Source: a virus
IMG/VR virus record: IMGVR_UViG_3300036985_001186
Coordinates: 1 to 21,544 of that record
DNA length: 21,544 nt
Strand: one strand, 5' to 3'
This document shows positions 8,388-15,903 of this stretch, piece by piece (within the stretch, counting starts at the first letter, position 1; every line of letters starts with the position of its first letter). The translations under genes and the position numbers were made by a program. The notes beneath the pieces were generated by a model. The model had not been told where the DNA came from. It did not search any database and worked only from the letters and a program-made list of their open reading frames with translations.

Positions 8388-8412
8388 TTTGTTACACATA
8401 CCATTACATTTG
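8388..8412 (+). promoter_or_regulatory. Candidate Bacteroidota promoter for the early plus-strand genes
   Basis: TACATTTG at 8405-8412 matches TAnnTTTG exactly. The nearest TTTG (8388-8391) is only 13 nt upstream, shorter than the usual 17-23, so the -33 part is weak. It overlaps the divergent promoter at 8420-8451. Confidence 0.5.
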
Positions 8413-8419
8413 TCCCTGT

Positions 8420-8451
8420 CAAAGATAATCAATTTAAAAAATCAAACACAA
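8420..8451 (-). promoter_or_regulatory. Candidate Bacteroidota promoter for the virion operon
   Basis: On the minus strand TATCTTTG (8427-8420) matches the -7 element TAnnTTTG exactly. A TTG (8451-8449) lies 21 nt upstream; a TTTG also lies 15 nt upstream (8446-8443). Transcription would start near 8413 and give a leader of about 55 nt before the TTG start at 8359. Confidence 0.55.
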
Positions 8452-8618
8452 TGGAAAATCCAAGAGACCGTTTTACAGTTACCGAAACAGTGGTAAGCAA
8501 GGTGTACGAAGTCATCGACACTCAAAAAGAATTTAGATACCGTGTCATCATCGGAATGTTTAGAGTTGAGGCCTACATTGATGAGATGTTAAAAATCAGC
8601 GCAGCTCGCAACAAGTAA
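8451..8618 (+). CDS. Small hypothetical protein, 55 aa (first early gene)
   Basis: ATG at 8451 opens a 55-codon frame (MENPRDRFTVTETVVSKVY ... KISAARNK). The leader ATCAATTTAAA, shared with three other gene starts, lies 12 nt before the ATG. The protein is charged and compact, without a membrane segment or recognised motif. As the first gene after the rightward promoter it would be expressed at once on infection, so a host-takeover or regulatory role is possible but unsupported. It is followed by the pseudoknot-like element. Confidence 0.65.
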   Translation: MENPRDRFTVTETVVSKVYEVIDTQKEFRYRVIIGMFRVEAYIDEMLKISAARNK

Positions 8619-8626
8619 AAAACAAA

Positions 8627-8651
8627 GCAGGGGTGCGACTGCTAAACGCAC
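8627..8651 (+). ncRNA. Candidate H-type RNA pseudoknot, copy 1
   Basis: Stem 1 pairs GCAG (8627-8630) with CTGC (8639-8642). The loop holds GTGCG (8633-8637), which pairs with CGCAC (8647-8651) to form stem 2. A second copy lies at 15748-15770, where the first stem-1 pair changes from G-C to A-T on both sides. It sits 8 nt after the 55-aa gene. Function unknown. Confidence 0.5.
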
Positions 8652-8685
8652 TAACTTTAGTAAATCAATAAACACAATAGATAAA

Positions 8686-8979
8686 ATGAAATTCACACTC
8701 CCAATTTTTTACAGCTACAAGATGACCTACAACCGTGTATACGGCATGGTAAACGAAGACATGATACGCATGGAGATTATTCCAAGCGCGGTCAATGACA
8801 AAGGCTGCACCATTGAACAAGACGAAATCGACGAACTGCAACTGTCAGTCTCTATGGCTCGCCTTCAAAGTCAATATGAATTCAAGTATGAGAGCGAAGG
8901 CGTGTTTCATCATCAGTTCATGGTGCATCACCGTGAGATATTCTACACACTATTCCCAGACGCAAGACCAACAATATGA
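8686..8979 (+). CDS. Hypothetical protein, 97 aa
   Basis: The ORF reads MKFTLPIFYSYKMTYNRVYG and continues with a mixed alpha/beta pattern: charged EQDEIDELQLSVSMARLQ in the middle, aromatic and histidine-rich FHHQFMVHHREIFYTLFP near the end. I do not recognise the family. An A-rich leader (AATAGATAAA) precedes the ATG. The stop overlaps the HTH gene start as ATGA, which suggests the two are co-expressed. Soluble; no signal peptide or membrane segment. Confidence 0.7.
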   Translation: MKFTLPIFYSYKMTYNRVYGMVNEDMIRMEIIPSAVNDKGCTIEQDEIDELQLSVSMARLQSQYEFKYESEGVFHHQFMVHHREIFYTLFPDARPTI

Positions 8980-9209
8980 GTAAAGACCGATTAACACTAT
9001 ACATCAACCGTCGGATGGGCAGCAAGTCTGCCCTCCTTCGGGCGATGCAAAAACACGGCGTACCCGTGGAAAGAAAGACCATCTACAACTGGTGCCGTGA
9101 CAATAACAGCATTAAGTTGGAGCAGCTGCAAAAGCTAGCTAAAGCGTTCAAAGTCCCGGTGCATGAATTAGTCAAACAAATAACCATTAAACACGAAGGT
9201 GATGAATAG
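8976..9209 (+). CDS. Small HTH (Cro/CI, XRE-like) DNA-binding protein
   Basis: The 77-aa product carries a helix-turn-helix in SKSALLRAMQKHGVPVERKT, followed by IYNWCRDNNSIKLEQLQKLA and KAFKVPVHELV, the usual XRE fold with its 'L..lA..l.v....L' final helix. It is basic at the start. It overlaps both neighbours (ATGA with the previous gene; 8 nt with the next). Its size and early position fit a Cro-like regulator that could act on the divergent promoters at 8388-8451 or on the palindrome at 16667-16681; neither target is proven. Confidence 0.8.
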   Translation: MSKDRLTLYINRRMGSKSALLRAMQKHGVPVERKTIYNWCRDNNSIKLEQLQKLAKAFKVPVHELVKQITIKHEGDE

Positions 9210-9432
9210 AGAAACAGCGGTTGAATTGTTGGTCGATGCAATACGCGGCCACATAGCAGACGGCACACTAGATGCCATAACTATTAGCAGGGCAAAGATG
9301 ATAGCCAAAGCAATGGAGCGTGAACAGATTGAAAATGCATATGACCAAGGTCATTGTGATTGTTTTCATGGAAAACATAAACAACATAAACAATACTATC
9401 AAGAAACATACAAAGGAGGTAAAGATGAGTAA
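9202..9432 (+). CDS. Small phage paralogue A (KAMEREQIENAYDQG family)
   Basis: The 76-aa protein starts MNRETAVELLVDAIRG and holds KAMEREQIENAYDQG and the C-terminal ETYKGGKDE. Two relatives lie in this window (17592-17810 and 18299-18526). I know this helical family from many Bacteroidetes phages; its function is unknown. ATG 9202 is preferred to the in-frame GTG at 9199 because the relatives also begin Met followed by a charged stretch and ETA. The codons for K-G-G near the end form an AAAGGAGGT ribosome-binding site for the next gene. Confidence 0.75.
   Translation: MNRETAVELLVDAIRGHIADGTLDAITISRAKMIAKAMEREQIENAYDQGHCDCFHGKHKQHKQYYQETYKGGKDE
9414..9419 (+). promoter_or_regulatory. Strong Shine-Dalgarno (AGGAGG) embedded in paralogue A
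   Basis: AGGAGG ends 5 nt before ATG 9425 and is encoded by the Lys-Gly-Gly codons of the upstream gene. Such a full Shine-Dalgarno is unusual in a window whose other starts use A/T-rich leaders. It fixes 9425 as the start of the next gene. The same arrangement recurs at 17794-17799. Confidence 0.7.
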
Positions 9433-9961
9433 CCAACCCACACCACAACAAGTGTACTACATCAAAAAGAACTACGGCAACATCCCCCATCACAAGATGA
9501 CAAAGGCACTTGGTGTTAGCAGCAAGGTTCTATCCGAGTGGTCACGGCTTGCGTTCAATCCGAAAGAGTCAACTAAAAAGTGGCGGCACATCATGCAGAA
9601 TTTGAACTACCTAGAACAGCAGGAGGAACTCGAACGCGAGCTGCTAATGGAGTATCAAATCAAAGATGTGGACAGGTTCAAAAACGTGACCTATCGCAAA
9701 GTGTATAATGCACAGCGCATGTTTTACCTTGTTACAATAGATCATGGCTTCAACTTTATCGTGAAGTTCGATGCACCTGTGCCAATTAACCTAGTCGAGT
9801 ATTCACCGTGGCCTACTGGACATGATGTAAGCGTTGAGCCTTTAGGCCATTGGGAATGGATGGAATTGAAAAACGATTTAACCGTGGTAGAAGTACCTAC
9901 CAATGGTGATTATGTTGGCTTATTTTGGTGCGCAACTAAACAGTTATTACATGAAGCATGA
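9425..9961 (+). CDS. Hypothetical protein with N-terminal HTH-like segment, 178 aa
   Basis: The start at 9425 is set by the Shine-Dalgarno 5 nt upstream; the frame is open further upstream, but that part lies inside paralogue A. Residues about 5-45 (TPQQVYYIKKNYGNIPHHKM, then ALGVSSKVLSEWSRLA) look like a helix-turn-helix of the kind that precedes nuclease or replication domains in phage proteins. The rest (residues 60-178) has no motif I recognise; it contains an aromatic-rich part (YSPWPTGHDV, GHWEWMEL). It overlaps the VRR-NUC gene by 11 nt. DNA binding is a tentative inference. Confidence 0.7.
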   Translation: MSNQPTPQQVYYIKKNYGNIPHHKMTKALGVSSKVLSEWSRLAFNPKESTKKWRHIMQNLNYLEQQEELERELLMEYQIKDVDRFKNVTYRKVYNAQRMFYLVTIDHGFNFIVKFDAPVPINLVEYSPWPTGHDVSVEPLGHWEWMELKNDLTVVEVPTNGDYVGLFWCATKQLLHEA

Positions 9962-10313
9962 TGAAAGTAAAATGCAGCAACGGTGTGTTGAGTGGTTTCG
10001 CTATTCATTCCCTCGCACACTCATTGCTTCCTTCCCTAACGGTGTCTACATCGGTGGTACTCCAGTGCAAAGAGCAAGACGCTGGAACCTTTTAAAAGCA
10101 GAAGGTGCGATGCCGGGAATGCCTGACCTCATGATTTGCATGAGCAACGGGCCATACCACGCACTATTCATCGAGATGAAAACCGAAAAGGGTAAACTTT
10201 CAGAAACGCAAAAAATCGTTCACGCACAGCTAATCAATGCAGGATACTGCGTTAAGGTGTGCAGGTCATTTGAAGAATTCATGACAACAGTCAAAGGTTA
10301 TTTGGAAGCATAG
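9951..10313 (+). CDS. VRR-NUC-type nuclease
   Basis: The 120-aa protein has the small VRR-NUC layout: QQRCVEWFRYSFP, then FPNG (residues 28-31), KAEGAMPGMPDLMI (49-62, with metal-binding Asp59), FIEMKTEKGKLSETQ (E75, K77, Q87) and AGYCVKVCRSFEEF. These are the PD-(D/E)XK core residues. Small stand-alone VRR-NUC proteins in phages are thought to be structure-specific DNA endonucleases, possibly resolving branched DNA. ATG 9951 is chosen; ATG 9972 is a possible later start. A promoter for the following gene overlaps the end of this one. Confidence 0.85.
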   Translation: MKHDESKMQQRCVEWFRYSFPRTLIASFPNGVYIGGTPVQRARRWNLLKAEGAMPGMPDLMICMSNGPYHALFIEMKTEKGKLSETQKIVHAQLINAGYCVKVCRSFEEFMTTVKGYLEA

Positions 10314-10331
10314 ATAATTTACTTATCTTTG
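10301..10331 (+). promoter_or_regulatory. Near-ideal Bacteroidota promoter
   Basis: TTTG (10301-10304), a 19-nt spacer and TATCTTTG (10324-10331) match the TTTG/TAnnTTTG consensus in full. Transcription should start near 10336-10338, a few nt before the 13-codon ORF and the structured region. Confidence 0.7.
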
Positions 10332-10345
10332 CCTTGCTACTCAGT

Positions 10346-10387
10346 ATGAAAACATTTTCAAACCCCACCATTACCGCATTGCCATAA
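10346..10387 (+). CDS. Possible 13-aa leader peptide
   Basis: ATG 10346 opens MKTFSNPTITALP followed by TAA. It lies just downstream of the predicted transcription start, and its codons 7-10 form the left arm of the large hairpin at 10364-10428. Ribosomes translating it would disrupt that hairpin, as in attenuators. No composition bias points to a particular amino acid. Whether it is translated is unknown. Confidence 0.35.
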   Translation: MKTFSNPTITALP

Positions 10388-10428
10388 GCACGACCGTGCG
10401 CTGGGTAGCCTTTGTGTGTAGTGGTGGG
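10364..10428 (+). ncRNA. Candidate structured leader RNA or small RNA
   Basis: CCCACCATTAC (10364-10374) pairs with GTAGTGGTGGG (10418-10428) over 11 bp with one wobble. The enclosed sequence holds a second hairpin, GCAC-GACC-GTGC (10388-10399). The outer stem is followed by an A/T-rich ATTTCATTTTA that runs into the ATG of the methyltransferase gene. It could act as a terminator/attenuator, a regulatory leader or an independent small RNA. I cannot assign a known RNA family. Confidence 0.5.
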
Positions 10429-10439
10429 TATTTCATTTT

Positions 10440-11690
10440 ATGTTACAAGTTAAAAAAGAATTTAAGGATTTAATTCCTGCCTTATTGCCTGATGAATTTA
10501 CTCAGTTAGAACACAACTGCATAAAGCACGGCATACAGGACAGCATCAAAGTATGGAGCGGCTATGTAATAGACGGGCATAACCGTTATGAGATTGCACA
10601 AAAGCACAAGTTAAAATTTGACATTGAAGAACTAAATTTTGAAGACGAGTTAAAGGTTCGTGAATGGATGATTTTAAACCAATTCGGCAGAAGGAATTTG
10701 AGCAACTACCAGCGGTCAATACTTGCATTGCAACTTGAAAATGTTTTTAAGGAAAAAGCAAAAGAAAAACAAAAGGAAGCTGGTGGTGCGGTTCCGCAGA
10801 AATCTGCCGAAGCGCCTGTTGAAACACGCAAAGAACTTGCAAAGGTTGCGCTAGTATCGCATGATACTATTGCAAAGGTCAAACAAATTGAGCAAAAGGC
10901 CTCGCCTGAGATAAAAGCCAAACTAAACACAGGTGAAGTAAGTATTAATCAAGCCTATCAAGAAATTAAGAAGGAAGAAAAAATTGCGCAACGTGAGCAG
11001 AAAAGGCAAGAACTTGAAAGTACAATTGACAACATTGATAGTACAGCAAAATATAATTTTTCCATTGATAATTTACAGCACGGATGGTATAAGGTAAATA
11101 ATCAGTTTTTATATTTTGGCAGTAACACTGATAAAGAGTTTATAGATTTTTTACCTAAGGCTAAATTTGTTTTTGCTGATCCCCCTTATAACGCAGGTGT
11201 TGATGAATGGGACTACAATTTTAAATGGCAATTAGATTATCTACAAGATAAAGCTGATGTGGTTGCTGTAACACCCGGCGGTTGGAATGCTTGCAATTTT
11301 TACAAAGAAACACAGATGAATTACATATGGGAAATGTTTTGCTGGATTAGCAACGGTATGACACACGGTAAATGCGGTTATGCTAATGTGATTAAGACAA
11401 GTATCTTCGGTAGTGTAAAACCTAAAATATCTCAGGACTTTTGGAAAATATCTATTCGAGTAAACGAAACAGAAGACACTCAGCATAAGGGTCGTAAACC
11501 GTATGAATTTATGTTTCACTTATTAGATGTCTTTACAAAAGAATCTGATATTGTCATTGACCCATTTGCCGGTAGCGGCACTACTTTGATTATGTGTGAA
11601 CAAATGAACCGTATATCTTATAATGCCGAAATCAATGAACAATACTGCCGCCTCATTTTTGAGCGTTCCGGTAACGCAGTCAAAATTTAG
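10440..11690 (+). CDS. ParB-like domain fused to DNA methyltransferase
   Basis: The 416-aa protein has a ParB-type N-domain (VIDGHNRYEIAQ, residues 43-54) with following helices (to about 190), then a methyltransferase domain. This has motif IV DPPY at 247-250 and the SAM-binding motif I DPFAGSGTT at 374-382. The order IV before I fits the beta class of amino-methyltransferases, which modify N6 of adenine or N4 of cytosine. Such ParB-methyltransferase fusions are common in phages, where they may protect phage DNA from host restriction. It lies downstream of the strong promoter at 10301-10331 and overlaps the next gene by 68 nt. Target sequence unknown. Confidence 0.9.
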   Translation: MLQVKKEFKDLIPALLPDEFTQLEHNCIKHGIQDSIKVWSGYVIDGHNRYEIAQKHKLKFDIEELNFEDELKVREWMILNQFGRRNLSNYQRSILALQLENVFKEKAKEKQKEAGGAVPQKSAEAPVETRKELAKVALVSHDTIAKVKQIEQKASPEIKAKLNTGEVSINQAYQEIKKEEKIAQREQKRQELESTIDNIDSTAKYNFSIDNLQHGWYKVNNQFLYFGSNTDKEFIDFLPKAKFVFADPPYNAGVDEWDYNFKWQLDYLQDKADVVAVTPGGWNACNFYKETQMNYIWEMFCWISNGMTHGKCGYANVIKTSIFGSVKPKISQDFWKISIRVNETEDTQHKGRKPYEFMFHLLDVFTKESDIVIDPFAGSGTTLIMCEQMNRISYNAEINEQYCRLIFERSGNAVKI

Positions 11691-12240
11691 CACACGATCT
11701 ATTAAAGGTGATGAATTACAGCTATGGTTTATTCAATATCTGAAAAACAACAGGATTGATTTTTTTAATTACGGTATTGAAACTGTTTGTAAGAGTAAAC
11801 GTAATCATCAAAAGCTGATGAATTATGTACACAAAGGCGCAAACTTAATGCGCTTTCATCCTGATATAGTTGTGCTATTAGCAAAGATGCCTTACTGGTT
11901 TGAAATTAAAAACAGTACAGGCATAGAAAAGGCTTGCTGGTTTCGCTATATTGAATTGCAAAGGGTCTATGAGATACCGATTGTATTTGTTTTAAAGAAC
12001 AAGAAGTTATGCAAGTTAGATGATTTGCAATTTAAAACTATGCCTGAGTTTGATGACAAAGCAAACATGTTCGTACCTGTTGAAAATAATATATGGCGTT
12101 GTCCTGATTTGCTAGAAGTTGATGCTAGACAAAAATATTTAGATGCATACTCAGGTAGAACATCAGGCAATACATTTGCCTACATTGATTTCGATGCAAG
12201 CACAATGCATGAGGTCAATGTATTAAATCAATTTAAATAA
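11623..12240 (+). CDS. PD-(D/E)XK nuclease-like protein, 205 aa
   Basis: The segment RFHPDIVVLLAKMPYWFEIK followed by NS fits the PD-(D/E)XK core: the Asp of HPDI, and E-x-K in FEIK. It is followed by ACWFRYIELQRVYEIPIVFV, where a helix and strand usually come next. The start at 11623 overlaps the methyltransferase by 68 nt; ATG 11635 is also possible. No later Met precedes the conserved part. Being coupled to a methyltransferase, it may be a cognate endonuclease or a DNA-processing enzyme; both are inference. Its last codons contain the ATCAATTTAAA leader of the next gene. Confidence 0.65.
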   Translation: MPKSMNNTAASFLSVPVTQSKFSTRSIKGDELQLWFIQYLKNNRIDFFNYGIETVCKSKRNHQKLMNYVHKGANLMRFHPDIVVLLAKMPYWFEIKNSTGIEKACWFRYIELQRVYEIPIVFVLKNKKLCKLDDLQFKTMPEFDDKANMFVPVENNIWRCPDLLEVDARQKYLDAYSGRTSGNTFAYIDFDASTMHEVNVLNQFK

Positions 12241-12245
12241 ACACT

Positions 12246-12998
12246 ATGGCACAAGACCCGGCATTTCTTTTTTACTTCCAAGATTTCTTAGTAGGCACGG
12301 ATGATATGGACAACGATGAAGTTGGTGCGTATATCCGCTGCCTATGCCATCAAGCTGCAAAAGGATGCATAACTGAAAAACATATGATGAAGATATGTTT
12401 AAGACAGGACGTGTACGAAACAGTATCCAGCAAGTTTGTCCGCGGCGAAGATGGCAACTACTGCAACGATCGTTTATCTTCTGAGATTAGCAAGCGTAAG
12501 GCATTTGCTGAATCAAGACGAAACAACAGATTGAAAAAAACATATGATAAACATATGTCAAAGACAATTGACACATATGTTCCACATATGGAAAATGAAA
12601 ATGAAAATGAAAATAAAGATGTAATTAAAAAGACTGCGCGCAAAAAGTTTGTGAAGCCTGATGAGAATGATGTGTACAACCTGATGGGTGAACTGAATTC
12701 AAAAGGCGGTAACTTTCTTACCGATGACAAGTTGGTTAATTTTGCCCGCACCTTTATTGATTACTATGAAGCAAAGGGGTGGGTAGTAGGCAAGTCACCA
12801 ATGAAGGACTGGAGCAGCGCAGTCCGGAATTGGATGCGCAGTGAATGGGACAAAGTAAAAAATCAAAAACAAAACACATATGCAAAACAATCAAATTCAA
12901 CAGCAGACAGCATTGCAAAAGCTGAACAACTTTTCCGCGATGCAGTCGCTATCAGTAACGCACGCGATCAAGCAAGACAAGATAGCACTCCTGCGTAA
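12246..12998 (+). CDS. Replication initiator-like protein (DUF1376-like N-terminus)
   Basis: The 250-aa protein begins AQDPAFLFYFQDFLVGTDDM followed by DNDEVGAYIRCLCHQAAKG. I recognise this as the N-terminal winged-helix-type region of Bacteroidetes phage replication proteins related to DUF1376. A linker with MENENENENK separates it from a C-terminal domain (YYEAKGWVVGKSPMKDWSSA, VRNWMRSEW) that occurs in the same group. The layout resembles lambda O or DnaD-like primosomal proteins, which bind the origin and recruit helicase. The candidate origin at 12538-12635 lies at the linker, as the lambda origin lies within gene O. It overlaps the next gene by 119 nt. Replication role inferred from family and context. 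Confidence 0.75.
   Translation: MAQDPAFLFYFQDFLVGTDDMDNDEVGAYIRCLCHQAAKGCITEKHMMKICLRQDVYETVSSKFVRGEDGNYCNDRLSSEISKRKAFAESRRNNRLKKTYDKHMSKTIDTYVPHMENENENENKDVIKKTARKKFVKPDENDVYNLMGELNSKGGNFLTDDKLVNFARTFIDYYEAKGWVVGKSPMKDWSSAVRNWMRSEWDKVKNQKQNTYAKQSNSTADSIAKAEQLFRDAVAISNARDQARQDSTPA
12538..12635 (+). other. Candidate replication origin: CATATG iterons plus A-rich tract
   Basis: Four CATATG palindromes start at 12541, 12552, 12574 and 12585, at spacings of 11, 22 and 11 bp. The first two are AAACATATG, the others ACACATATG and CCACATATG. They fall in two different codon phases, so a protein repeat does not explain them. An A-rich, strand-asymmetric tract (12590 to about 12635, GAAAAT repeats) follows. 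Single copies also lie at 12381 and 12878. Confidence 0.5.
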
Positions 12999-13575
12999 GC
13001 TGGATAGAACAACTACAAAGGTTAAAATCATGCAGCTCGTGACGCGATGTACGCAATTGCTCAACGTGCAGAACAACATGAACTCAGTACAGATTGAATT
13101 TTGCGCTGAGAATATTCTTGACAAGATGTGGATGTACAGTCTTGAAGATATACAACTGTGTTTAGATCGTGGTGCTATTGGTGAATACGGCACAATCTAT
13201 AACCGCATAGACCCTGCTACTATCCTTGCATGGTTTCCTAAGTATGATGCGCAACGTCAAACTGTAAGCGATGCTATCAATGAAAACAATAAGCAGCACA
13301 ACAACATCTACGAACTGTTTGCACATCCGCAAATCAGCGAAGCCATGCAAGATGTTGTAACAAAAATGGATGCAAAAATGTTACAGACACCGGCACAAGA
13401 ACCAACACGTGAACAGCCGTCACAACTTGAGATAGCGTTGATGCGTGAGTATGATGCGCTGCCACAGTGGGACAACGACATGCGATTCAGAGTGTACAAG
13501 AACAAGCCTTACCAGTTCACAGAGTTCCGCATGGAGCGTTACCGCGAATTGATTGAAGACCAAAATGAATATTGA
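12880..13575 (+). CDS. Replication-associated hypothetical protein, possible helicase loader
   Basis: The 231-aa product contains FCAENILDKMWMYSLEDIQL and CLDRGAIGEYGTIYNRIDP, then ILAWFPKYDAQR. I recognise this pattern ('W.Y.LEDI..C......G.YG..Y.RID') from a protein that often follows the replication initiator in Bacteroidetes phages. Its function is not established; a helicase loader or primosomal partner is a guess from position. The start at 12880 overlaps the upstream gene by 119 nt; ATG 12940 would shorten this to 59 nt and would remove a Gln/Asn-rich stretch. The C-terminus is charged. No Walker motif was seen. Confidence 0.7.
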   Translation: MQNNQIQQQTALQKLNNFSAMQSLSVTHAIKQDKIALLRKLDRTTTKVKIMQLVTRCTQLLNVQNNMNSVQIEFCAENILDKMWMYSLEDIQLCLDRGAIGEYGTIYNRIDPATILAWFPKYDAQRQTVSDAINENNKQHNNIYELFAHPQISEAMQDVVTKMDAKMLQTPAQEPTREQPSQLEIALMREYDALPQWDNDMRFRVYKNKPYQFTEFRMERYRELIEDQNEY

Positions 13576-13578
13576 AAA

Positions 13579-13740
13579 ATGAAACAATACGACATTGCAA
13601 AAGAGAACGTACTACTGCGCAAATTATTTATCTTAGCGGCAAAGAGAAGTATGCGGCCCAGCATGACCGACAACAAAATCATGTGGCTGCTACTCGAAGA
13701 ACTTTACCTGCTAACTGAGAATGACATTTACAAGCTATGA
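13579..13740 (+). CDS. Small hypothetical protein, 53 aa
   Basis: ATG 13579 lies 3 nt after the previous stop and opens MKQYDIAKENVLLRKLFILA, ending ENDIYKL. It is a basic-then-acidic helical protein with no known motif. The stop overlaps the next gene as ATGA. The tight packing with neighbours is the main support for it being real. Confidence 0.6.
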   Translation: MKQYDIAKENVLLRKLFILAAKRSMRPSMTDNKIMWLLLEELYLLTENDIYKL

Positions 13741-13919
13741 CCATTGGTGAACTTTGGGATGCGTTGCAGAATTACCCGGATGATACAGAAGTGTACGTAG
13801 GGTTTATCAACGGCCATAGCATCGACGAAGAACCATTCACAATAGCAGAGATTAGCAACATGCGGGGTAAGATTACAATCGCATTTATGATGGATGATAT
13901 AAACATAATCAATAATTAA
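13737..13919 (+). CDS. Small hypothetical protein (LWDALQNYPDDTEVYV type), 60 aa
   Basis: The start MTIGELWDALQNYPDDTEVY resembles a widespread small phage motif, 'T..EL...L..YPDD.EV.V', found in short proteins of unknown function. The rest forms probable beta strands (KITIAFMMDD). It overlaps the previous gene by ATGA and ends 4 nt before the SSB-like gene. Confidence 0.65.
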   Translation: MTIGELWDALQNYPDDTEVYVGFINGHSIDEEPFTIAEISNMRGKITIAFMMDDINIINN

Positions 13920-13923
13920 ATCA

Positions 13924-14157
13924 ATGAGTAATTACACAATGCAAGAGGGTCAGTTCACCCTATTCAAGAACACACGAACAAACAACAACGCACCTGAGTA
14001 CACGGGTGAAATCATGGTCAATGGTAAGAAGATGCGCCTTGCTGCATGGGTTAAGGAAGGCAAGAGCGGCAAGTTCTTTAGCGGCAAGATGTCCGAGCCA
14101 TTGCCACCACGCACACAAGATGATGATTCACAAGGCACGGGTGATTTGCCGTTCTAA
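13924..14157 (+). CDS. SSB-like protein with acidic C-terminal tail
   Basis: The 77-aa protein has a short beta-rich part (YTGEIMVNGKKMRLAAWVKE, then KSGKFFSGKMSEP) and ends DDDSQGTGDLPF. The acidic tail closing in a hydrophobic D-x-P-F is the hallmark of single-stranded DNA-binding proteins, where it docks replication and repair partners. The body is shorter than a bacterial SSB (about 110-aa OB domain), so this would be a minimal phage version. It sits between replication genes and terL, with its stop overlapping the terL ATG (TAATG). ssDNA binding is inferred from the tail and context. Confidence 0.6.
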   Translation: MSNYTMQEGQFTLFKNTRTNNNAPEYTGEIMVNGKKMRLAAWVKEGKSGKFFSGKMSEPLPPRTQDDDSQGTGDLPF

Positions 14158-15455
14158 TGATTGAGTATCTACCGAAACAAAACGAAGCACTGCGCGTGTT
14201 GGGGAATTCACACCCAGCGCGTGTGGTGCTATTCGGTGGTGCGGCAGGTGGATCAAAATCTTTTATCGGTTGTGCCTGGCAGATTAGCCGACGGTTTAAA
14301 TATCCCGGCACGCGAGGGCTAATCGGTAGGAGCAAACTTGACACGTTAAAAAAGACTACGCTCAAGACTTTCTTTGAAGTGGCACAGATGTTTGGCCTTG
14401 CACCAAATGAACACTACACAATCAACAACCAGACGCACGTGATCACGTTTGCAAATGGCAGTGAGATTATTTTAAAAGATTTATTTGCCTATCCTAGTGA
14501 TCCCGAATTTCACGCACTTGGTGGACTTGAGTTAACAGATGCGTACGTGGATGAGTCGGCACAAGTTAGCAAGCGGGCAATAGACATCTTACAGTCACGC
14601 ATTCGATTTAAGCTAAACCAATACGACTTAAAGCCCAAGATGCTGCTCACATGCAATCCGTCCAAAGGATGGCTTTACAATGAGTTCTATGCACCATTCA
14701 AGAATGATTCACTCCCGGCACATCTTGCATTCATTCCATCGCTGCCAACCGATAACCCACACCTGCCCGAAAGTTATCTTGAAACATTACGCATGCTGCC
14801 CGAAGTGGACAGACGAAGGCTGCTAGACGGTGACTGGGAGTATGATGAATCAATAGACAACATGTATCAATACGACGACCTTGTGCGCTGCTTCCGTGAT
14901 GAAGAAAGCAAAGGTGAAAAGTATATCAGTGCCGACATCGCACGTCTTGGAAAAGATAGAACGGTGATTTGCGTTTGGCATGGTTTGCATCTTATCGAGA
15001 TTCACGAGCTGCGCAAGCAACCCATCACAACCGTTGTAACAAATGTTAGACAAATTTGTGACAGGCATAGCATCAAACTAAGCAATGTAATCTGTGATGA
15101 AGATGGTGTAGGTGGTGGTGTAGTCGATAGCTTAAAGTGTCGGGGCTTCCTTAACGGCGGCAGGGCCAAACAACCAGACCGCTACGTGAATCAGAAAGCG
15201 GAATGCTATTTCAAATTAGCAGAACTCATAGAGCAGAACAAGGTAGTATTCAAGGTTGATCGCTTCCGGGATGTCATCGTGCAGGAGCTGGACATGATAC
15301 GCCGCCGCACGCCCGAAGCCGACGGCAAACTAGCTGTGATAAGTAAAGACGAGATAGCGCGGATGCACGGGAAGTCTCCTGACTACGCAGATGCCATAAT
15401 GATGCGTGTTTACTTCGAACTTTTCCCTAATTACGGCAGCTATTCGTGGGCTTAA
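14157..15455 (+). CDS. terL: Terminase large subunit (TerL)
   Basis: The 432-aa protein has the ATPase and nuclease halves of phage packaging motors. A Walker-A-type loop GGAAGGSKS lies at 27-35, Walker B AYVDES at 129-134 and the coupling motif TCNPS at 165-169. The RNase H-like nuclease acids are Asp260 in SADIARLGKD, Asp314 or Asp316 in VICDEDGVGGG, and Asp409 in SPDYAD. It would cut concatemeric DNA and pump it into procapsids. The Walker A loop has Ser in place of the usual residue before Lys. It is placed among plus-strand replication genes rather than with the virion operon. Length and motifs are complete. Confidence 0.95.
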   Translation: MIEYLPKQNEALRVLGNSHPARVVLFGGAAGGSKSFIGCAWQISRRFKYPGTRGLIGRSKLDTLKKTTLKTFFEVAQMFGLAPNEHYTINNQTHVITFANGSEIILKDLFAYPSDPEFHALGGLELTDAYVDESAQVSKRAIDILQSRIRFKLNQYDLKPKMLLTCNPSKGWLYNEFYAPFKNDSLPAHLAFIPSLPTDNPHLPESYLETLRMLPEVDRRRLLDGDWEYDESIDNMYQYDDLVRCFRDEESKGEKYISADIARLGKDRTVICVWHGLHLIEIHELRKQPITTVVTNVRQICDRHSIKLSNVICDEDGVGGGVVDSLKCRGFLNGGRAKQPDRYVNQKAECYFKLAELIEQNKVVFKVDRFRDVIVQELDMIRRRTPEADGKLAVISKDEIARMHGKSPDYADAIMMRVYFELFPNYGSYSWA

Positions 15456-15508
15456 TAGCTTCTGCAACCCGCGTCATTGCTCATTTTAACAAATTTTAAC
15501 AGTCTACT

Positions 15509-15541
15509 TTTGGTGGGTAATAAGTTACCTGTGTATCTTTG
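15509..15541 (+). promoter_or_regulatory. Bacteroidota-type promoter after terL
   Basis: TTTG (15509-15512), a 21-nt spacer and TATCTTTG (15534-15541) match the consensus. It lies in the 108-nt gap after terL and points to the 58-aa gene at 15564. A direct repeat TTTTAAC-AAA-TTTTAAC lies just upstream (15484-15500). Confidence 0.65.
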
Positions 15542-15563
15542 GCCATCATTAAAACACAAAGCA

Positions 15564-15740
15564 ATGACAAACATTAATTTCAAAGACATCGAGGTAGTTG
15601 ATTGGGACTATTCTCACAAAGATGACCCATCAAGCTACTACATCCTAGAGGCATACATCGGTGATGAACTCGCAACGGATGAACAGATTGACCAAATCAA
15701 TGATGATTACAGTTTAGTTTGGGAGTTAATTTTTAAATGA
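15564..15740 (+). CDS. Small hypothetical acidic protein, 58 aa
   Basis: ATG 15564 is chosen because it follows the promoter by about 20 nt. An upstream in-frame TTG (15477) would start before the promoter. The protein (MTNINFKDIEVVDWDYSHKD ... SLVWELIFK) is strongly acidic and soluble, with no motif I recognise. Like the 55-aa gene at 8451 it is the first gene after a promoter and is followed by the pseudoknot-like element, although the two proteins do not look alike. Confidence 0.65.
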   Translation: MTNINFKDIEVVDWDYSHKDDPSSYYILEAYIGDELATDEQIDQINDDYSLVWELIFK

Positions 15741-15747
15741 AGTAATC

Positions 15748-15770
15748 ACAGGGGTGCGGCTGTAACGCAC
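15748..15770 (+). ncRNA. Candidate H-type RNA pseudoknot, copy 2
   Basis: Stem 1 pairs ACAG (15748-15751) with CTGT (15760-15763). GTGCG (15754-15758) in its loop pairs with CGCAC (15766-15770). It lies 7 nt after the 58-aa gene stop. Compared with copy 1 (8627-8651) the end pair of stem 1 changes on both strands while stem 2 is identical. Confidence 0.5.
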
Positions 15771-15798: not shown

Positions 15799-15903
15799 AT
15801 GAAAAACACTTCTACCATCCTTCGCTACGTTATCGGCGCACTAATCGTTTTTGCAATTCTTAACTATTGTCAAGAGTTGAATGATTGCCTGATGCGCTAT
15901 TAA
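15799..15903 (+). CDS. Tiny membrane protein, 34 aa
   Basis: ATG 15799 opens MKNTSTILRYVIGALIVFAI, then LNYCQELNDCLMRY. Residues 8-22 form one hydrophobic helix after a positively charged start, so an inner-membrane protein with a short outside tail containing two cysteines is likely. It is preceded by an A-rich leader. Function unknown; position in the early region suggests interaction with the host envelope (inference). Confidence 0.5.
   Translation: MKNTSTILRYVIGALIVFAILNYCQELNDCLMRY

Follow-up and report, generated by a model that had tools for sequence, protein, structure and literature searches.

The window analysed here (21,544 nt, positions 1 to 21,544 of IMG/VR record IMGVR_UViG_3300036985_001186) is a Bacteroidota-type phage contig with two copies of a short pseudoknot on the + strand. 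The first gene of a rightward operon, a 55-aa ORF ending in TAA (8451..8618, +) without a PHROG match, is preceded by a promoter -7 box of the Bacteroidota type TAnnTTTG, recognized by sequence (TACATTTG, 8405..8412, +, 215 nt before copy 1), and followed by pseudoknot copy 1 (8627..8651, +; CM R1, E=5e-8). This copy has the long form, GCAG-GG-GTGCG-A-CTGC-TAAA-CGCAC, in which stem 1 (S1) pairs 8627-8630 with 8639-8642, the loop GG occupies 8631-8632, stem 2 (S2) pairs 8633-8637 with 8647-8651, and the third loop (L3) is TAAA at 8643-8646. A 97-aa ORF (8686..8979, +), an HTH-like regulator ORF (8976-9209) and the remaining operon follow. Copy 2 (15748..15770, +; CM R1, E=3e-6) stands behind a 58-aa ORF (15564..15740, +) that is unrelated to the neighbour of copy 1 and likewise has no PHROG match. 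Its -7 box, also assigned by sequence, is TATCTTTG (15534..15541, +), 207 nt before the copy and separated by a 21-nt gap from a TTTG at 15509-15512. Copy 2 has the compact form, ACAG-GG-GTGCG-G-CTGT-AA-CGCAC, with an S1 core at 15749-15751/15760-15762, an outer A-T at 15748/15763, S2 at 15754-15758/15766-15770 and AA as L3. The 34-aa ORF downstream (MKNTSTILRY..., 15799..15903, +) has homologues behind the pseudoknot at 13 loci, whose upstream genes are of several kinds. The coordinates given to the two elements in the original prediction are correct, and the setting it described is present at both: a TAnnTTTG box, the 55- or 58-aa ORF, the stop, 8 or 7 nt, the element, an A/T-rich gap and an ATG (8686; 15799). 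Elsewhere the window encodes an N6/N4 DNA methyltransferase with a ParB-like N-terminal part (10440-11690) and a terminase large subunit (14157-15455).

From the window alone the pairing is not significant, and a claim of significance on that basis was rejected: perfect 4+5-bp pseudoknots of this shape are expected by chance about 8 times per strand in shuffled sequence. The pairing is counted significant because the motif recurs in IMG/VR and because both stems covary when the partner strand is left free. Both window copies belong to a family of compact H-type pseudoknots with the consensus xCAGGG-RYGCG-N-CUGy-(0-4 nt)AA-CGCRY and a conserved unit of 21-25 nt, in which the unpaired GG and AA and the S2 segment GCG:CGC are strongly conserved across unrelated phages. 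In the scans for covariation, one stem strand was fixed to a variant and its partner left free, so that pairing was not selected for. The partners of stem 2 are complementary in 155/157 matches. With the stem 2 strand set to ATGCG, the matching T appears in 31/33 matches, and with A, C or G as its second base the scan returns 123 GCGCG:CGCGC and one GAGCG:CGCTC, with no mispair. When the first base of the stem 1 core is anything but C, the 123 distinct matches comprise 74 G:C, 28 A:T and 20 T:A pairs and a single mispair; 122/123 partners are complementary. In alignment A2, 97% of cells are paired, against 9-52% for slid structures; its rows had been chosen to have S2 and the three inner pairs of S1, and the partner-free scans are the real test. 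The H-type order S1a-S2a-S1b-S2b is thereby supported in both stems by decisive covariation.

Further homologous copies that had lost their pairings would have refuted the original prediction; the copies found contain only one mispair among 123 in stem 1 and two among 157 in stem 2. The statement that stem 2 is invariant fails, since the family includes GTGCG:CGCAC, GCGCG:CGCGC and ATGCG:CGCAT. The outer-pair change from G-C to A-T, cited as covariation, is weak evidence for the two window copies because copy 2 has the compact form, in which pairing at the outer position is optional (T:T 38, A:T 37); the long form, however, does show covariation there (G:C 54, C:G 38, G:T 15, A:T 12, T:A 7). 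The length of the loop goes with that of the stem: a stem 1 of three pairs occurs with loop UAA and one of four pairs usually with NNAA, as geometry leads one to expect because the third loop must cross stem 1. In a subtype-like variant, three bases, CAT, separate stem 2 from the second stem 1 strand (e.g. AAGGGGATGCGCATCTTTAACGCAT; L073, L032, L212, L224, L278). The opinion that the element matches no known RNA family holds: the window contains no family at the gathering threshold of Rfam 15, and Rfam against copy 1 at E<=10 yields nothing but a meaningless miRNA match (E=7.5). No database entry or paper was found for the pseudoknot; literature searches returned no description, although most subscription journals were outside their reach and an earlier account is not excluded.

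Scans of IMG/VR with the motif AGGGGTGCGNCTGY..CGCAC and related patterns match at least 119-120 loci in each of three scans. The matches to the first motif have a common layout, in which a stop codon is followed by a few bases, the pseudoknot, an A/T-rich stretch and an ATG. Chance matches among the first 119 listed (e.g. L015, L066, L106) were dropped, an AA-CGCRY end and both stems being required. Altogether, IMG/VR virus contigs and cultured phages contribute more than 350 places with the family; with duplicates removed the count is at least 380, a few of them from cellular genome records. The sample is biased by pattern scanning, and these counts hold among the matches listed; genes are simple ORFs in most loci, and for IMG/VR contigs the host is an inference from promoter type and composition. 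In 257 Gb of cellular genomes the corresponding pattern matches only 7 places; the pseudoknot is essentially a viral element, nearly confined to viruses, and bacterial genomes almost lack it. Short consensus queries in BLAST add phAPEC8-like E. coli phages (S1 as GGAG:CUCC), Klebsiella phage 05F01 (S2 as AUGCG:CGCAU), Microbacterium phage Pumpernickel, Pseudomonas phage PsgM04F, the crAss-like phages cr1_1 and cr50_1, microvirus MG945485, the cluster B mycobacteriophages Vincenzo, Acadian and LilMcDreamy, and Corynebacterium phages BFK20, phi673, phi674 and PSonyx. The hosts span at least three bacterial phyla (Bacteroidota, Actinomycetota and Pseudomonadota), and the carriers include both ssDNA and dsDNA phages. 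A model search of 58 records identifies 1-3 copies in each except one, whose original match is chance-like; most virus contigs that have the pseudoknot carry 1-3 copies, and PSonyx carries four.

The position of the pseudoknot relative to the preceding gene is narrowly set. The analysis took A/T-rich loci whose upstream sequence was long enough and counted the spacing from the stop up to the base with which the three-pair stem 1 core begins. Upstream of 209/219 A/T-rich copies, an ORF of 30 codons or more ends within 25 nt, against 31/219 in the reverse-strand control, and the spacing is 6-9 nt in 169/209. The individual counts are 63, 38, 35 and 33 at 6, 7, 8 and 9 nt and 7 and 11 at 10 and 11 nt, with only 5 below 6 nt; the peak is kept when distinct upstream protein clusters are counted instead (51, 31, 18, 25, 6 and 10 for 6-11 nt). 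The spacer modulo 3 is distributed 103/54/52, and all three frames are used. Among named phages, annotated stops lie 7 nt away in Vincenzo, 6-8 nt in Acadian, 9 nt in phi674 and 7 nt in cr1_1. The distance is 13-65 nt in the microvirus, BFK20, PSonyx, LilMcDreamy, Pumpernickel and cr50_1, and for some of the copies in GC-rich phages it is 12-65 nt.

Typically a promoter is followed by one small gene, the pseudoknot and the remaining operon. Upstream of the A/T-rich copies, the TAnnTTTG box type seen in the window is concentrated at 200-400 nt (0.51 and 0.26 per 100 nt, against 0.07 in the control), and a box lies 100-450 nt upstream in 141/193 copies, compared with 49/193 at 450-800. No TAnnTTTG enrichment occurs downstream of the A/T-rich copies, and the downstream genes lack promoters of their own; transcription must therefore continue past the knot. 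The original prediction regarded the element as conserved and its flanking proteins as unrelated, as the wider sample bears out, with 210 upstream and 182 downstream protein clusters and no family common to all. Upstream genes are mostly without known role; the exceptions include single-strand binding proteins (SSBs; three PHROGs), Erf, a major head protein, a reductase and a sigma factor. Downstream genes of known role are early genes, encoding RecT and Erf annealing proteins, primase, helicase, methyltransferases, Lar, endonucleases and anti-restriction functions. Partners reassort around the knot, with one downstream cluster pairing with 13 upstream clusters. Promoter-plus-small-gene cassettes are also seen swapped before the same knot and the 34-aa (MKNTSTILRY) or a 50-aa (MANKLKTPQEKH) gene, and the place may be a hot spot for small early cargo genes.

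What follows the knot varies, and may be an ATG 6-45 nt on, a tRNA, a tRNA-like structure, a terminator or the stop codon of a convergent gene. In cr1_1, cr50_1 and Pumpernickel, 3-5 nt separate the end of the knot from a tRNA. In locus L037 and four relatives it is borne by a solitary rightward gene, flanked together with its knot on both sides by leftward genes, and the stop codon of the convergent gene touches the end of the knot; a different solitary gene occupies the same convergent place in L078. In L301, three genes of one operon each have a knot behind them, within ~1.6 kb. The copies at convergent ends, before tRNAs and behind successive genes therefore tie the pseudoknot to the upstream stop codon. 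Some GC-rich phages whose copy is 32-63 nt away from the stop have, between stop and copy, a second H-type pseudoknot of distinct structure, which in most cases begins 4-9 nt behind the stop. Six stem 1 and eleven stem 2 sequences occur among its 17 variants, and their pairs are 164 Watson-Crick and 3 G-U; as the variants were parsed manually, the pair count leans towards pairing. Loci with this second knot include L179, L212, L242, L184, L226 and L174, and longer versions then have a hairpin with the loop GAGGAAT. The constant feature across contexts is a knot close behind a stop codon.

Several functions can be set aside. Intrinsic termination, one of three functions proposed in the original prediction, does not fit, since the bases that come next, A or T and mostly ATT, ACA or AAT, form no U-run. 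Control of the translation of the next gene does not fit because copies precede tRNAs or end convergent genes, and a riboswitch was rejected since neither a downstream gene nor an expression platform is common to the loci. The third proposal, RNA stability, fits best. The explanation favoured here, tentatively and at slightly less than an even chance, is that the pseudoknot is a virus-specific 3'-UTR barrier that guards the stop codon and the mRNA 3' end against 3'-to-5' exonucleases. Stable 3' structures are established as obstacles to 3' exonucleases in bacteria (PMC3997798). Under this model, mRNA tails arising from endonuclease cuts, RNase P cleavage or Rho-dependent ends would be attacked by 3'-to-5' exoribonucleases, the knot would resist them, and decay would halt a few nucleotides past it, so that the ORF would retain its stop codon and remain translatable. 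The upstream gene's message, for example that of small early proteins, single-strand binding proteins or capsid, would be longer-lived and better expressed than the genes behind. For copies preceding a tRNA, RNase P would leave the knot at the 3' end of the upstream message with a short tail. What the model adds to the observed structure, covariation, spread, spacing and contexts, namely exonuclease blocking, greater stability and an advantage for the upstream gene, is inferred, without RNA data.

The spacing has a ready place in the same model. Frameshifting pseudoknots have a 5-9 nt spacer behind the A-site codon (PMC7618472), and 6-9 nt is therefore inferred to be the nearest position at which a knot is not opened by a ribosome resting on the stop. 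At less than ~6 nt a terminating ribosome would pull the knot apart, and at more than ~9 nt single-stranded RNA would be exposed between ribosome and knot. Protection of the message end is favoured because the knot tracks the upstream stop while the following feature is arbitrary; behind the convergent-end copies, nothing is left on that strand to regulate. The different knot in the stop-proximal slot of some GC-rich phages implies that being a knot outweighs exact sequence. In addition, the upstream genes of known role include several for abundant proteins (SSB, Erf, major head protein). Against protection, a general 3' protector does not require the promoter-proximal bias, the loop GG, S2 GCG and AA are more conserved than strength alone would need, some GC-rich copies lie far from the stop, and the phAPEC8-like copies follow a tRNA cluster, not an ORF. 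The absence of promoters for the downstream genes, which obliges transcription to run on beyond the knot, also counts against it.

A first rival is antitermination of the put type, in which the knot would bind the emerging host RNA polymerase so that terminators in the remaining early operon are read through. HK022 putL and putR are likewise phage-encoded RNAs acting in cis, conceivably without a protein, and putR lies ~270 nt downstream of the start site of an early promoter (PMC9378689), comparable to the 200-400 nt seen here; the knot follows one small gene, precedes replication, recombination and anti-restriction genes, and has no promoters just downstream. Conservation of RNA polymerase could explain the spread across host phyla, and put-type sites are phage elements. 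However, put comprises two stem-loops of ~70 nt (PMC9378689) without an H-type knot, whereas the pseudoknot is 21-25 nt long, is held at 6-9 nt from a stop codon and occurs also where no gene follows on the strand. Most A/T-rich copies do occupy a put-like, promoter-proximal place before an operon, but the convergent solitary-gene lineage does not. Three copies in a row in one operon, copies so close to a tRNA that RNase P would cut the tether, and the different knot in the stop-proximal slot of some GC-rich phages make this account unlikely as the general role. Rather unlikely, too, is a direct action on the ribosome, by which a knot at the mRNA entry of a stop-bound ribosome would alter release, recycling, readthrough or drift into the next gene. 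Nearly all A/T-rich copies do stand behind an ORF, the spacer feature of readthrough and frameshift stimulators is met, and the drop from 33 copies at 9 nt to 7 at 10 nt matches the 5-9 nt spacer (PMC7618472). These stimulators share the H-type topology, but the phage knot stands behind a normal stop in all frames without a conserved extension. The frames are not conserved, the compact form contains UAA in one of them, and the flanks differ between copies; no readthrough product is selected, and readthrough or frameshifting with an extension product was rejected. Moreover, some copies are too far from a stop to touch the ribosome, and the phAPEC8-like copies do not follow a gene at all. Neither antitermination nor a direct effect on terminating ribosomes is excluded, and both remain open.

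Two further explanations have less in their favour. The strong conservation of the unpaired GG and AA and of S2 GCG:CGC across unrelated phages, the near confinement to viruses and the one to three copies per contig could reflect recognition by an RNA-binding protein of host or phage, or a decoy function that inactivates a defence RNase of the host. Phage mimics of pseudoknot antitoxin RNAs offer a comparison for the decoy idea. This is improbable, as no neighbouring protein family is common to the loci and a decoy needs no fixed distance to a stop codon. The reassortment of partners around the knot might suggest a DNA recombination anchor, a short conserved sequence at module boundaries where genes swap, but compensatory stem changes, coupled stem and loop lengths and a strand-specific position are features of RNA and leave such an anchor very improbable; exchange at the site may be a by-product.

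If the pseudoknot does protect mRNA ends, it would provide a compact part for controlling expression and a phage analogue of viral exonuclease-resistant RNAs (xrRNAs). Both are compact viral pseudoknots in non-coding parts of messages with a proposed exonuclease stop. The xrRNAs of RNA viruses, however, block the 5'-to-3' nuclease Xrn1 by a larger ring fold, whereas the phage pseudoknot belongs to DNA phages, is proposed to block 3'-to-5' decay and has no digestion data behind it. REP elements and terminator hairpins are also 3' structures just behind ORFs that slow 3' exonucleases (PMC3997798), but they are hairpins of cellular genes, unlike this conserved and nearly virus-only pseudoknot. 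It is conceivable, though still short of an even chance, that the family represents a new class of virus-specific RNA, in which a tight pseudoknot at the entry of the terminating ribosome protects the stop codon and the message end, a counterpart of the eukaryotic viral exonuclease-resistant RNAs working in the opposite direction. The pseudoknot is a very small RNA whose covariation is decisive and which recurs among unrelated phages from at least three bacterial phyla, and its fixed distance to the stop codon points to a demand common to phage messages. Carriers include cultured phages of E. coli K-12 and Mycobacterium smegmatis, making a direct test feasible.

Two other structured RNAs adjoin some copies. 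A tRNA-like structure lies ~4 nt behind the knot and before the next gene in seven loci (L009, L047, L074, L087, L100, L293, L309), at about 4094-4170 in L047, counted on the - strand. It has a 6-bp acceptor, no D-stem, a long stem with a pyrimidine-rich loop and a T-arm with a TTCGA loop, ends in 3' ACCA in several loci, and adjoins related genes. ARAGORN and Rfam do not call it where scanned. Identity of the element with tRNA or tmRNA was rejected, as ARAGORN finds none at the copies that precede these structures, which are neighbours of the element and not the element itself. In the phAPEC8-like loci L122, L123, L127 and L128 (~1440-1560), a conserved structured leader (GCCAGCGGTATCTT...) precedes the knot. 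It comes after a tRNA cluster in three of these four loci, and a terminator follows in L122, L123 and L128; the leader is probably an undescribed phage small RNA.
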